NCBI GenBank assembly: GCA_026004435.1
Contig: BPJD01000001.1
Location: forward strand, 62,001-126,000
Direction of reading: 5' to 3'
Length of the DNA: 64,000 nucleotides
DNA from: Patescibacteria group bacterium
GTDB lineage: Bacteria > Patescibacteriota > Microgenomatia > UBA1406 > GWC2-37-13
This document shows, in pieces, positions 6,384 through 42,803 of this stretch. Position numbers and translations under genes: made by a program. Under the pieces are notes generated by a model. It saw only the letters and a list, made by a program, of their open reading frames with translations. It was not told the DNA's origin and searched no databases. Positions within the stretch are counted from its first letter, which is position 1. Every line of letters begins with the position of its first letter.

Positions 6384-6409
6384 TGTTCAGTTGATTATCC
6401 AATTAAACA
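6384..6409. promoter_or_regulatory. 26-bp palindrome, copy 1 (overlaps stop of TrpR-like gene)
   Basis: Plus-strand half-sites TGTTCAGTTG and CAATTAAACA flank the centre ATTATC. The TGA stop of the TrpR-like gene (6387-6389) lies inside it, so the palindrome also encodes the last residues FNWIIN. It is one of four copies in the window and lies about 310 nt upstream of rpsB. Confidence 0.7.
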
Positions 6410-6875
6410 TCCAACATTTTTCTCTTTTTTTCCTTTTTTCGTGTTCTATTTTTAGATTCCAGTGTCCTTTTTTGATGCCAGCTTGTATAAAAAAATCAGC
6501 AAAAATATCCTCAAAGAAATGCAAAATCTTTTCTTTTTTAAGAATGTCATTAATAATTTTTTTAAGTTTTGAGTTTTTTTTCTTTTCTGTTAACCAACGG
6601 TATTTTGCTACTGTAGCCCTAGAAACCTTAAGATATTTGCATATACCTTCAGTGTCAGCTTTTTTGATGATAAGATAAATTAATGCAATTCTTTTGGCAA
6701 TCATTATCTGTTCAGTAGTAGAAAGCAAATCTTTTTTTAGTTGAAGAAATTCCTCCTCAGTTTTTGCTTTTTTTAAAATCTCATATAAAAGTTTAAAAGT
6801 TTTTGCCATTTTTTCTTTATTTACAGGTCTTTTTGATATATTCGGAATTTTAAAAATGTTTAATTGATTACTCAA
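6387..6875 (-). CDS. TrpR/YerC-like transcriptional repressor
   Basis: A 162-aa helical protein whose residues about 22-100 fit the Trp-repressor/YerC-YecD superfamily. AKTEEEFLQLKKDLLSTTEQ corresponds to the FLRDLCTP.E block, then IAKRIALIYLIIKK, and ADTEGICKYLKVSRATVAKY is the helix-turn-helix (family: Y.EIa..TGASTATIsRV). A basic, non-family extension of about 60 residues follows. The start is TTG at 6875; an internal ATG at residue 23 would still include the HTH core. Two copies of a 26-bp palindrome overlap its start and stop codons, suggesting autoregulation. The co-repressor is unknown, and nothing shows it is tryptophan. Confidence 0.7.
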   Translation of the reverse strand: MSNQLNIFKIPNISKRPVNKEKMAKTFKLLYEILKKAKTEEEFLQLKKDLLSTTEQIMIAKRIALIYLIIKKADTEGICKYLKVSRATVAKYRWLTEKKKNSKLKKIINDILKKEKILHFFEDIFADFFIQAGIKKGHWNLKIEHEKRKKREKCWMFNWIIN

Positions 6876-6882
6876 CTCAACA
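6857..6882. promoter_or_regulatory. 26-bp palindrome, copy 2 (operator over TrpR-like start codon)
   Basis: Half-sites TGTTTAATTG and CAACTCAACA flank the centre ATTACT. The TTG start codon at 6873-6875 lies inside it. A minus-strand promoter is likely just upstream, with an extended -10 TGCTATTTT (TATTTT at 6902-6897) and TTAACA 17 nt before it, so the site would cover about +5 to +30. That is a typical autorepression position. Confidence 0.65.
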
Positions 6883-38310: not shown

Positions 38311-38631
38311 ATGTTTGAGTCTGGTATTAAAAATAGTAAATACCCAAGTTATGATTCATTTTTCCATTTTCTTAACCTTGAGGTGATTTCCTTAATTTCA
38401 GAACTGCAGCAAATGCTAAGTTATTTATCAATAATTAATGATTCTTTATCTTATTATGAGAATGTGCTGGCTGATCTTGATCCTTTGTCAGATAATTTTT
38501 TTAGCATTTATTTAGTTTATGAACTTTTGAAAAGAGAACAAATGATACAGGAGGCAAATATAGCTTCTATCTGTCAAGAACTGCAACATAGTTATGCTAA
38601 ATTTTTTTATAGCCAAAATCAAAATAATTAA
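38311..38631 (+). CDS. Hypothetical helical protein
   Basis: A 106-aa protein I do not recognise. It is strongly helical (LNLEVISLISELQQMLSYLSI, LVYELLKREQMIQEANIASICQEL) with heptad-like leucines, no signal peptide and no membrane helix. It is isolated: divergent from tRNA-Arg, and followed by 450 nt with a 26-bp palindrome 70 nt beyond its stop. Codon use matches neighbouring genes. Small size leaves some doubt that it is translated. Confidence 0.45.
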   Translation: MFESGIKNSKYPSYDSFFHFLNLEVISLISELQQMLSYLSIINDSLSYYENVLADLDPLSDNFFSIYLVYELLKREQMIQEANIASICQELQHSYAKFFYSQNQNN

Positions 38632-38702
38632 GGATCTTACCCGATTAACTTAAACTTTCTTAACAATTTATTAAATTTACATCATTTAATTTAACCTGCT
38701 TT

Positions 38703-38728
38703 TGTTCAGTTTATTATCCAACTGAACA
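38703..38728. promoter_or_regulatory. 26-bp palindrome, copy 3
   Basis: Half-sites TGTTCAGTTT and CAACTGAACA flank the centre ATTATC. It is nearly identical to the sites at the TrpR-like gene. It lies 72 nt after the stop of the helical protein and 380 nt before the DUF11 gene. Confidence 0.65.
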
Positions 38729-38891
38729 TTAAATAAAATTGTTTTTTTTATTCTTGAAGTTTGCGGAATTTTATTAAACCTAAGACGACCCTATTATTCA
38801 ATGCAAAAGCTTCACTTTTTAATGTAGTCAAATGGACAAGGTTTAATAATTAAGAGGGCGTATCAGTCTAAAATAATTCGCTTTAAAGATT

Positions 38892-39011
38892 ATGTTAAAA
38901 ATTATACTTTGTTTATTTTTATTGAATAACTATAAGATTTTAAGGCAGTTGTTGCTTTGTCTTGGATTAGGTTTGTTGTTTTGGTTAATTTTGCGGTTTG
39001 TTTTTATTTAG
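38892..39011 (+). CDS. Possible 39-aa hydrophobic small protein
   Basis: ATG 38892 to TAG 39011 encodes MLKIILCLFLLNNYKILRQL followed by LLCLGLGLLFWLILRFVFI, a plausible membrane helix. It has no SD and no known family. In sequence this AT-rich, hydrophobic frames arise by chance, so confidence is low. Confidence 0.25.
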   Translation: MLKIILCLFLLNNYKILRQLLLCLGLGLLFWLILRFVFI

Positions 39012-39069
39012 AATCTTTTGTTGTCTTTTTAGCAACCATATTACTTGTTGATTTTTAAAAACTATATGA

Positions 39070-39075
39070 TATAAT
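39070..39075 (+). promoter_or_regulatory. -10 box of leaderless-type promoter (DUF11 protein)
   Basis: TATAAT ends 7 nt before the ATG at 39083. Confidence 0.5.
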
Positions 39076-39082
39076 TACGGTT

Positions 39083-39721
39083 ATGAAAAAAATACTTATA
39101 GTTTTTTTTACTAGTATTGCCTATTTTTTTGCTAGCACACTTGTGCTTGCCAGCGGACAGTATGGTCAGTATGGATCACCTAGTTATGTTTCTTCTTTAT
39201 TAATTGACAAATTAGTTGTTAATCCTGCAACTGGAGAGTATGTAGATAATTTGTCAGTCTCTGACAACAAATTTGCTCCGTTATCTTATGTTTATTTTAA
39301 GCTAACTGTAAAAAATACTGGTAATGTAGATATTGCTGGAGTTAAGGTAATTGATTATTTGCCTAGTTATTTAGAGTATGCAGATGATAAAGGTGAGTAT
39401 GATGCCAGTACCAGACAGCTTAAGATTGAGATGGGTGATTTTAGGGTTGATGAAACCAAGTCTGTAATTTTTAAGGCAAGAGTTGTTTCAGCCAATAATC
39501 TGCCTGCTGAAAAAAGTGTTCTTTGTTTAATCAATAGGGCAGTTGTAGTCTTTGATAATCAGGAAAAAGACTTAGACACTGCTCAATTTTGTGTAGAAAA
39601 AACAGCTGCAGCTCCTGCAAAAGAAACAAAAGAAATGCCAAAAGCAGGTACATCTATTCCTGTTTTTGCATTAATGTCTTTAGCTTTTGGCTATATTGTA
39701 AAAAAGCAGCTCTCTGTTTAA
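39083..39721 (+). CDS. Surface protein with DUF11 domain and C-terminal anchor
   Basis: A 212-aa exported protein: signal peptide at residues 1-24 (ILIVFFTSIAYFFASTLVLASG). A DUF11-type Ig-like domain follows, with SYVYFKLTVKNTGNVDIAGVKVIDYLPSYLEY and the G-F-V-E-K-x-F-A/V pattern. An Ala/Lys/Glu linker leads to MPKAGTSIPVFALMSLAFGYIVKKQL, resembling an LPxTG-type sorting or anchor segment (MPKAG, hydrophobic helix, basic tail). It is probably displayed on the cell surface. No sortase gene is present in the window. It lies between palindrome copies 3 and 4. Confidence 0.72.
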   Translation: MKKILIVFFTSIAYFFASTLVLASGQYGQYGSPSYVSSLLIDKLVVNPATGEYVDNLSVSDNKFAPLSYVYFKLTVKNTGNVDIAGVKVIDYLPSYLEYADDKGEYDASTRQLKIEMGDFRVDETKSVIFKARVVSANNLPAEKSVLCLINRAVVVFDNQEKDLDTAQFCVEKTAAAPAKETKEMPKAGTSIPVFALMSLAFGYIVKKQLSV

Positions 39722-40025: not shown

Positions 40026-40706
40026 ATGATAAAACTTATCTGCGGAGAAGATGAGACTTCTGCTTATAATTTTTACTCTGAGCTTAAAAATAAATTTTTA
40101 GCTAAAGGTTATCGAGTTTTTCAAGGTGATTCTGATAATTTTTTTGATATCATAGCAAAAGTTGAGTATTCCTCTACCCTTTTTGGTCAAAAAAACGCCT
40201 TTTTTTTTCAGGGTCTTCTAAAAAAACTTGGCAAAAACAAGGATTTTCTCAGACTGCTTGAGTTTTTTAAAAAATCATCTGCTGATTATTTGGTTATTAT
40301 TGATTTAGTAGATGAAAAAACAGCCTTAAAGTTTTTGGATTCAAAAAATGTCGTAAATTTTTCATATCCGGATACGCTTTGGAGTTTGCTTGATAATTTT
40401 TCTCCTGCAAAAAAAGAGTTTTTTTTGCAAAAATTTAATGAAGTAAGTAAAAATACTGCAATTGAGCTGATTTTCTTTATGCTGGCAAGACGAACCAGAG
40501 AGTTGATCTTAGCCAAAGAAGATCAGCTTCAGGCAACGCCCTTTTGGCTGAAGAATAAACTGAAAAAACAGGCTCAGGACTGGAGCTTGGCTAAACTTAA
40601 TGCGTTTATTGATCATTTTCATACAATTGATCTGCGAGTAAAGACCTCTGCAACGCCATATTCCCTAAAGGATCTGCTTGAGATAGTCTTCTACTTTGGG
40701 CTTTAG
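40026..40706 (+). CDS. holA: DNA polymerase III delta subunit-like (HolA), short form
   Basis: About 226 aa. KLICGEDETSAYNFYSELK is the usual N-terminal opening (a degenerate P-loop region), FFDIIAKVEYSSTLFGQKNAFFFQGL follows, and the C-terminal third has LIFFMLARRTRELILAKED, PFWLKNKLKKQAQDWSLAKLNAFIDHF and LDLRVKTSA-type sequence (IDLRVKTSATPYSLKDLLE). HolA opens the sliding clamp in the clamp loader. At about 226 aa it is shorter than the 340-aa E. coli protein; such short forms occur in CPR genomes. ATG 40026 is preferred to TTG 40020 because of the -10 box. Confidence 0.75.
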   Translation: MIKLICGEDETSAYNFYSELKNKFLAKGYRVFQGDSDNFFDIIAKVEYSSTLFGQKNAFFFQGLLKKLGKNKDFLRLLEFFKKSSADYLVIIDLVDEKTALKFLDSKNVVNFSYPDTLWSLLDNFSPAKKEFFLQKFNEVSKNTAIELIFFMLARRTRELILAKEDQLQATPFWLKNKLKKQAQDWSLAKLNAFIDHFHTIDLRVKTSATPYSLKDLLEIVFYFGL

Positions 40707-40843
40707 TTTTAAATTTTTGCTTAGAAAGATCTCAAATGGCAATGTGTCTGTATTATGTAGGGATTTTAAAATTTTTAAGACTTCTTGAGTATCTCAAAAA
40801 TAAACTTAAAATTGCAAAAAATAAACAAAATCAAAGTGTAAGA

Positions 40844-40869
40844 TGTTTAGTTGGATAATCAACTGAACA
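40844..40869. promoter_or_regulatory. 26-bp palindrome, copy 4
   Basis: Half-sites TGTTTAGTTG and CAACTGAACA, with the centre GATAAT, read on the plus strand; the asymmetric centre matches the other copies when read on the minus strand. So it is inverted relative to copy 3. It lies about 140 nt after holA and 520 nt before the phosphomannomutase gene. Confidence 0.65.
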
Positions 40870-41020
40870 CTTATTCAATAAAATATCTTATACAAAAGGT
40901 TAAAATTTCTCATTTGTTTGCATAAGTTCTTCTTTAAGTTTTAGTATTGAATTTTTTGTTAATAGAATTATCCTTAGGTATTTTTACTCTTGTATAGATG
41001 AGTTGTCATTAATCTTTTAT

Positions 41021-41130
41021 AGGCTTCTTAAAAGTATTTTGTAAACTCAAAATTATTTGTTAGTACTTCTTTTATTTTCTATTAATGGGTATTCTGAATA
41101 ACTTAACAAATATCAAAGTCGAAGAAGCCT
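41021..41130. repeat. Nested inverted repeats (possible RNA hairpin or small element)
   Basis: Outer arms AGGCTTCTT (41021-41029) and AAGAAGCCT (41122-41130) pair perfectly. Inside, TATTTGTTA pairs with TAACAAATA. The AT-rich interior is otherwise weakly structured. It could be a hairpin RNA, a transcription terminator or a decayed miniature element. Confidence 0.35.
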
Positions 41131-41390
41131 AATTTTGTCTTGTACACTATAGCAAATGATATCTTTTTGTATACTTGATTGCTGTGATTATATGCCCTTT
41201 ATACTAAAAATTAAATTTTAAACTGCAGTATTTTTGCAATAAAATTATTTATCTTTTTTTGATAAGCTTTGTTATATGTTGTTATATGTTTATACCTATG
41301 TTGTAGAATAATCTTAACTTGACTTGATTTTTTTTCTTTAATGAATTAAAGTATGATAAAGTAATATATTATAAATTTTGAAGTTTTATT

Positions 41391-42803
41391 ATGATAAACC
41401 CTTCAATTTTTAAAGCCTATGATATCAGAGGTGTTTATGACAAAGATTTTTCAGCAGATGATGTTGAGAAAATCATTAGAGGTATTTACAAATTTTTTTC
41501 AGAGTACTTTGGCAGTCAAGAATTGGTTATCAGCCTTGGTAGAGATATGCGCAACTCTTCTCCAGAGATATACCAGAAAGCCTTGAACACGCTTTTGCAT
41601 TATCCTGTTAAGGTGCTTGATTTGGATCTCTGTTCTACTCCAGGATTTTATTACTCTGTTTTAAAGCTGTCGGCTGATGCTGGTATTCAGATAACTGCTT
41701 CGCATAATGCAGGCGAGTACAATGGCATTAAGTTTGTTATGAGAAAGGGTGATAGGATTATTAAGGTTTCAGGAGCTTTTGGTATGGATCAGGTTAAGGA
41801 GGCTGTTTTATCAGAAAGTTTTGTGCCGTATCAGGAAAAAATAGGAAAAAAAGAAAGTCATCATCACTTTGATAATATTTATGTGCAGGATACTATTGCT
41901 TATATGGGTAATCCAACTTATACCAAAAAGTATAAAATCGCTGTTGATACAGCAAATGCTATGGGAATTTTGTATCTTAGGCCTTTTTTTGAACGCTACA
42001 GCCAAAACTTTCAGGTGAATTATATTAATCAGGACCTAGATGGCAGTTTTCCAGCTCACTTAGCTGATCCATTGGTAGCTGAGAATTTAAAACCTTTGCA
42101 GGAGTTGGTAAAAAAAACATCTTCGGATTTGGGTGTTGCTCCGGATGGTGATGGAGACAGGATTTTTTTTGTTGATAATCAGTTTAATATTATTAACCCG
42201 ACCTTAGTTACTGCTTTAATCTCTGATTATGCTTTTTCAGATAACAAATCTTATACAGTTGTTGTTGATGTAAGGTATACCAGAAATGTTGAGGCTATCT
42301 GTAAAAAATATAATAAGAACTTGACTTTAGTCAGGGTTGGTCACTCTTTTATTACAGAAAAAGTCAATGAACAAAAGGCTTATTTTGCAGGTGAGTCATC
42401 GGGCCATTATTATTTTTATGATTTTGGTGGAGCTGAAAACTCTCTTTTAGTGCTGATGTATATGCTTAAGGCTATAGATGAAAAAAATAAGCCTGTTTTT
42501 GAGATTGTGAATTCTTATGCTGCAAGTTTTGAGTCTGGAGAGTATAACTTTGTTTTGCCTGACAATTTAACAGCTGATCAGCTGTTTAATAAATTAAAAA
42601 AGTTGTACAAAGATGCTCAAGTGCTGGAAATTGATGGATTTACTGCTGAGTTTTCAAACTGGAGGTTTAATTTTAGATCATCAAATACTGAGCCTTTGGT
42701 TAGGCTTAATCTTGAGGCTGATTCAAAGGATCTGTTAAAAAGCAAACTTAATGAACTGCAAGAGTTTTTGCGCAGTAATGGTTTGCGTCCTAAGGTAGAA
42801 TAG
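41391..42803 (+). CDS. manB: Phosphomannomutase/phosphoglucomutase
   Basis: A 470-aa alpha-D-phosphohexomutase. FKAYDIRGVY opens the protein; QITASHNAGEYNGIKFV is the active-site phosphoserine loop (TASHN), VAPDGDGDRIFFVD the metal-binding loop, and FAGESSGHYYFYDFGGAEN the sugar-binding loop. FRSSNTEPLVRLNLEA is the phosphate-binding loop of domain 4. It interconverts hexose 1- and 6-phosphates, giving mannose-1-P or glucose-1-P for nucleotide sugar synthesis, upstream of GalU and the glycosyltransferases. It follows a long regulatory-looking intergenic region. Confidence 0.95.
   Translation: MINPSIFKAYDIRGVYDKDFSADDVEKIIRGIYKFFSEYFGSQELVISLGRDMRNSSPEIYQKALNTLLHYPVKVLDLDLCSTPGFYYSVLKLSADAGIQITASHNAGEYNGIKFVMRKGDRIIKVSGAFGMDQVKEAVLSESFVPYQEKIGKKESHHHFDNIYVQDTIAYMGNPTYTKKYKIAVDTANAMGILYLRPFFERYSQNFQVNYINQDLDGSFPAHLADPLVAENLKPLQELVKKTSSDLGVAPDGDGDRIFFVDNQFNIINPTLVTALISDYAFSDNKSYTVVVDVRYTRNVEAICKKYNKNLTLVRVGHSFITEKVNEQKAYFAGESSGHYYFYDFGGAENSLLVLMYMLKAIDEKNKPVFEIVNSYAASFESGEYNFVLPDNLTADQLFNKLKKLYKDAQVLEIDGFTAEFSNWRFNFRSSNTEPLVRLNLEADSKDLLKSKLNELQEFLRSNGLRPKVE

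Follow-up and report, generated by a model that had tools for sequence, protein, structure and literature searches.

What role is played by a small gene enclosed between two copies of one palindrome? The question is raised by a locus in the window, i.e., the whole stretch of 64,000 nucleotides analyzed here, which is part of a genome of 885 kb in 7 contigs (G000, 98% complete). The gene encodes a TrpR-like protein, and proteins of the TrpR fold are known from textbooks as repressors that act at promoter operators. The first-pass annotation of the window read the locus in this way, as an autoregulated repressor whose regulon would also include the neighboring rpsB operon.

The TrpR-Like Gene and Its Protein

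The gene lies on the reverse strand (6387..6875) and encodes the long form of a TrpR-like DNA-binding protein, as indicated by the ORF, PF01371, the family alignment, and AlphaFold. The window protein itself matches PF01371 weakly (E 1.2e-4, under the curated cut-off), and the same family is matched by 14 of its 15 homologues. The AlphaFold model built from 48 relatives has a mean pLDDT of 82.8 for the window protein (a model made without an alignment is poor, at 52.5), and its best structural matches are TrpR crystal structures (E. coli TrpR; Z 8.9, 2.9 A over 101 residues). The TrpR fold comprises model residues 14-116, beyond which there is a C-terminal helical extension that ends in basic residues. 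The TrpR-like identity given in the first-pass annotation is upheld by the homologues and the model, which support a DNA-binding protein of the TrpR fold and of the PF01371 family. Searches of Pfam, NCBIfam, and the PDB also returned weak partial matches, to the IS3 transposase helix-turn-helix and others, and beyond these they identified no family of transposases or nucleases. In the same searches, the protein between the palindromes had no match to the HUH family, which means that the Y1 HUH transposase of REP/RAYT systems was not found here.

The annotated start is a TTG codon. In the family alignment, the ATG of the relatives falls on an ATT codon near 6848, so the true start is probably nearer to this position, which would place the upstream palindrome about 8 bp before the start, as in the relatives.

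The named relatives belong to Candidatus Roizmanbacteria, other Microgenomates, and some Parcubacteria-type lineages. Profile matches at E ≤ 1e-3, a count that takes in short YerC-type proteins as well, are present in 233 of the 373 genomes of the class, with up to 10 in one genome and none in 140. No relatives were found in viral contigs, on which ground a viral origin of the family was rejected, and a comparable TrpR-like family was not found in the open-access literature.

Palindrome Copies in the Window and the Genome

The 26-bp palindromes that bracket the gene were confirmed at 6857..6882 (copy 2, TGTTTAATTGATTACTCAACTCAACA, 5' to the gene) and 6384..6409 (copy 1, TGTTCAGTTGATTATCCAATTAAACA, 3' to it), both unstranded, and their occurrence is beyond chance. 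As first described, copy 2 contains the TTG start and copy 1 the TGA stop, which is true of the annotated ORF, although the real start is probably further inside. In the homologous units, the 5' palindrome abuts the start or lies just upstream of it, and the 3' palindrome is mostly found 0-15 bp past the stop.

Within the window, TGTTNANTTG-N6-CAANTNAACA has three exact matches and one with a single mismatch, and a search allowing up to three mismatches gave 5 matches against 1.5 expected. Dispersed copies occur at 38703..38728 on the forward strand (one mismatch; intergenic, 71 bp past the stop of a 106-aa ORF, with flanks of repeat group B, described below) and at 40844..40869 on the reverse strand (intergenic, 137 bp past a stop, with a phosphomannomutase-like gene following at 521 bp). 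Upstream of the same phosphomannomutase-like gene, a copy with two mismatches is present in G001, a genome of the same genus.

In the genome as a whole, pattern searches with a free spacer recovered 14 copies, 12 of them exact and two with one mismatch, followed by a gap to the background of two to three mismatches. With the spacer fixed, 13 copies were found at ≤2 mismatches and none for a reversed control pattern. The central spacer is ATTATC in 12 of the 14 copies, a conservation overlooked in the first-pass annotation. All the copies are intergenic, save those of the bracket, which overlap both ends of the TrpR-like ORF. When the copies were mapped relative to gene starts, a check that the annotation had itself named, the nearest start was at least 150 bp downstream of the dispersed sites.

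Around many of these copies there are larger imperfect repeats, which fall into two families (window 38631-39083 and 40706-41391; L017, L018, L020, L021, L023, L025). Group A repeats are about 280 bp long and 73% identical, and those of group B, with one copy in G001 (L026), extend over ~50 bp ahead of the site and 170 bp past it. An island of 4.1 kb (L017:4928-9072; G000 C1:38927-43071), which adjoins lexA-like/dinP-like and prfA-like genes, is enclosed by two direct repeats of group A; G001 is without this island, and the flanking genes are ~64 bp apart there.

Bracket Architecture across Patescibacteria

The conservation of the sites beside trpR-like genes in related genomes had also been named as a check, and it holds widely. 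The gene ends of 79 relatives were searched for two similar palindromic 26-mers, with the other ORFs of the same loci as controls, and the long (~147 aa) gene was found to be bracketed by a matching pair in 62 of the 79 homologous loci vs. 4 of 439 control ORFs; at a stricter cut (score ≥36), 55 loci and no control ORF were bracketed. The usual unit consists of a palindrome, 0-10 bp, the ORF, 0-15 bp, and the second palindrome. The bracket sequence varies by lineage (ACTACAATTAATTAATTAATTGTAGT, ATTACAATGTTTTAAAACATTGTAAT, ACTTCGATTATTCGAATAATCGAAGT, AGTCCAATCGATTAATCGATTGGACT, and many more), and no neighboring gene recurs among the homologous units.

The distances between palindromes correlate with those between proteins (Mantel r 0.42, which exceeds all 2000 permutations), a signal that is partly one of shared ancestry. 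At the level of single columns, no protein column stands out in its covariation with the DNA, those of the recognition helix included. On sequence grounds, the TrpR-fold protein and its lineage-private palindrome probably evolve as a pair. From the matching of bracket and slot sites, we strongly infer that the protein binds its own 26-bp palindrome, on which it would act as a dimer. Given that palindromes are tied to the protein across many genomes, autorepression through the 5' copy is plausible.

The ileS-rpmA-ParB-like-topA neighborhood hosts different unit subfamilies at different places (L074, L084, L099, L100), and at murC-yfiH (L104, L078) units with drifted palindromes occupy one locus, with differing cargo genes alongside. 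In several relatives murC-yfiH has no unit, and no solitary palindrome is present at the empty site (one locus), for which reason integration at the palindrome as a target was rejected.

Dispersed Private Sites in Relatives

The pattern searches were extended to the palindromes of other lineages, with similarly private results. Copies of ATTACAATGTTTTAAAACATTGTAAT (≤3 mismatches) number 8 in G335, 4 in G016, and 3 in G019, each count including one or both bracket copies, and there are none in G187, G020, G010, and G027, which have other bracket types. The palindrome ACTTCAATCGATTAAACGATTGAAGT is present about 20 times in G187 and absent from seven other genomes, G000 among them. The palindrome type of G000 has several copies only in G004, whose homologue is the closest (63%), and one or two copies in G001, a genome that yielded no homologue. 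Thus, dispersed palindromes that match those at the gene, which a REP/RAYT system would also have, are present.

The intergenic dispersed sites (n=37) fall between convergent (12), tandem (22), and divergent (3) genes, against 25% divergent expected (p 0.008), in classes that derive from our own ORF calls and in which two "convergent" sites in fact extend into the 3' ends of two genes. Outside G000, 13 sites start ≤12 bp from a stop codon, and a few dispersed sites do adjoin starts. In G187, most copies are intragenic, in genes whose names, as read from the sequences, are glycosyltransferases, queA, and murD-like, lysS-like, and miaB-like genes, with no obvious common function; nine of the in-gene copies have the same orientation and three the opposite one. 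The one reading frame in which no stop was found is used by the in-gene copies of the main inspected set, except for a secondary copy with two mismatches (L343), and by most of those in the other sets. In the inspected loci, no operon for amino-acid biosynthesis was recognised beside the sites. Most dispersed sites are other than promoter operators, given that divergent placement is rare and that sites at stops or in frame inside genes are unlike a promoter regulon.

One private palindrome of G219 (L260:1966) precedes a gene of the short YerC/TrpR type by 21 bp, which suggests cross-talk between the long and short forms.

Fixed Slots inside queA and a Glycosyltransferase Gene

The clearest intragenic sites are those of queA, which holds differing palindromes in one codon register, namely ATTACAATGTTTTAAAACATTGAAAT (G335, G019), ACTACATTATATTAATATAATGAAGT (G219, G016), ACTTCAATCGATTAAACGATTGAAGT (G187), TTTTCAGTTAATTAATCAACTGAAAA (G015), and ACTTCGATGTATCGATACATCGAAGT (G393). 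Six genomes have an intact queA site together with a known bracket, and in five of them the site agrees with the genome's own TrpR-like bracket at 24-26 of 26 positions, a total that none of 20,000 permutations of the genome labels reached, this slot and that of the glycosyltransferase described below having been spotted first and tested later on partly the same genomes. G335 and G019 agree throughout the slot (100% identity), against a mean of 63% for 26-bp windows, and slot identity is 69% where sister genes carry different palindromes. Among 22 queA genes, palindromes of ≥9/10 occur six times at the slot and three times elsewhere in 23,234 positions, counts that do not represent an unbiased sample, since the site-context loci were retrieved by searching for sites. 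In a QueA tree built without the slot, the genomes are not grouped by palindrome.

The palindrome adds no length to queA, nor does the one in a second slot, in a glycosyltransferase gene (G335, G187, G020, G006), so these in-gene copies are not insertions, and an origin like that of the Rickettsia palindromic elements was rejected. In G187, the 5' bracket and the queA and glycosyltransferase sites are identical (26/26). The first-pass annotation had held that its reading would be refuted by copies that were randomly scattered, lay within genes, or turned up in genomes without the gene; copies inside genes do occur in the relatives, but they are not randomly placed, given that their positions are fixed and that they carry the palindrome of the resident gene.

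The queA slots look decayed in G017 and G005, in which no long TrpR-like gene was found, and in G020, in which none of the matching type was found. There are two exceptions, i.e., G016, with an intact queA palindrome and no matching gene found in an assembly that is 90% complete, and G006, with a perfect palindrome in the glycosyltransferase slot and no long TrpR-like gene found; as the assemblies are incomplete, an absent gene is one that was not found. The presence of the TrpR-like gene vs. an intact queA palindrome alone gives p 0.057. A functional link to queuosine was rejected, because several genomes with the long gene, including G000, gave no queA match. It is tentatively proposed that the private 26-bp sites are written into fixed reading-frame slots of unrelated host genes with gene length kept, in which case a stretch of the enzyme would be set by a DNA site that changes with the resident DNA-binding protein, through a spread or rewriting that is templated and not insertional.

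Possible Roles of the Protein and Its Sites

A mechanism that brings these observations together begins with a TrpR-fold dimer that would bind a 26-bp palindrome private to its lineage and, by binding at both ends of its own gene, would keep expression low. The same protein would occupy a few (about 1-20) dispersed genomic sites, and, once the specificity had shifted in a lineage, the new palindrome would stand in the bracket and at the dispersed sites, coding ones such as that of queA among them. At the dispersed sites, the bound dimer may act as an obstacle on the DNA, i.e., a roadblock at gene ends and within genes, which is the leading reading, although a tentative one. The asymmetric centers speak against the pairing of protein and palindrome: ATTATC in G000 and ATTAAA, which is kept in the zero-mismatch copies of G187, are conserved exactly, to a degree that a symmetric dimer should not require, which hints at copying.

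Exact copying of the centers speaks for the closest rival, a possible REP/RAYT-like or otherwise selfish system, in which the palindrome is copied around the genome, perhaps through biased recombination or DNA uptake, and the bracketed TrpR-like gene is the helper (a "REPtron" without a Y1 transposase). Two copies of a palindrome around a gene, with further copies elsewhere in the genome, make up the REPtron layout; the units are patchily distributed, in varying contexts and with up to 10 matches to the family in a single genome, and missing at murC-yfiH in several relatives, and the larger repeats around many G000 copies also fit. On the other hand, the transposase or nuclease matches are only weak and partial, the queA and glycosyltransferase copies are not insertions, the empty murC-yfiH sites hold no solitary palindrome, and the copies per genome are few compared with REPs; the slots are common to different genera.

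It is less likely that the protein serves chromosome architecture or segregation, with sites similar to parS, matS, or Noc sites. Such a role would suit sites that avoid divergent promoters, fall past stops or inside genes, are low in number per genome, and have the gene beside them, but 140 of the 373 class genomes have no match and others hold several paralogues with different sites.

The classical repressor of the first-pass annotation is similarly doubtful. It has in its favor the TrpR fold, the 5' palindrome that abuts the start in many units, and the autoregulation through palindromes in HisR/TrpR relatives (PMC9413887). The distance of the dispersed sites from starts in G000, their position elsewhere, mostly at gene ends or inside genes, and the lack of a common pathway or a recurrent neighbor all speak against it. 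The proposed control of rpsB-tsf-frr-rseP-cmk-proS by copy 1, which lies ~310 bp from rpsB, was rejected, given that the neighbors of homologous units vary and that G001, with an rpsB 86% identical, has neither the gene nor the G000 palindrome there. Upstream of rpsB in G001 (L052:2647-2670), a genome in which the search for a long TrpR-like gene gave nothing, there is a palindrome-like GTTCAATCGATTAAACGATTGAGC similar to the G187 type, possibly the relic of another unit. A few units of other genomes (L069, L070, L103) are located within or next to the proS/cmk/rseP/frr/tsf block, though not in the same position, and on the other strand.

Finally, RNA hairpins (terminators or mRNA elements) bound by the protein would suit palindromes able to form 10-bp hairpins, many of them just past stop codons and some between convergent genes, but were rejected as very improbable, given that compensatory changes among the G000 sites are not above chance, that the in-gene copies of G187 have both orientations, that the inspected G335 copies have no T-tracts directly after them, and that the only Rfam hits in the searched loci were tRNAs.

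Comparison with Known Systems

The family described here is a TrpR-fold one expanded in bacteria with very small genomes, whose private sites bracket their own gene and extend into coding sequence at conserved positions. It offers dozens of natural protein-site pairs in which the evolution of DNA specificity can be studied, and a case, open to testing, in which protein sequence would be overridden by a DNA-binding site.

Lineage-specific palindromic motifs and autoregulation have been reported for HisR (YerC) (PMC9413887). The fold of model residues 14-116 and the Pfam family PF01371 are shared with TrpR and HisR, but the present protein has ~147 aa, against <100 aa, and a basic C-terminal helical extension. 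Its palindrome has 26 bp, and not 20 bp, and flanks both gene ends, and its dispersed sites lie at gene ends or inside genes, with no link to his or trp operons seen.

The REP/RAYT systems (REPtrons) likewise have a gene bracketed by palindromes that are present elsewhere in the genome. They differ from the present units in that a TrpR-fold protein is found here and no recognised Y1 HUH transposase, the copies are few, those inside genes arose without insertion, and the putative cognate pairs differ between the lineages of one family. If the sites do spread selfishly, they would form a REP-like system with an unexpected helper.

DNA uptake sequences (DUS/USS) occur in hundreds to thousands of copies, in frame within genes and at gene ends, and have lineage "dialects". 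These positions and the dialects are features that the present sites share; the present sites differ in being 26-bp palindromes of about 1-20 copies, tied to the small gene that they bracket.
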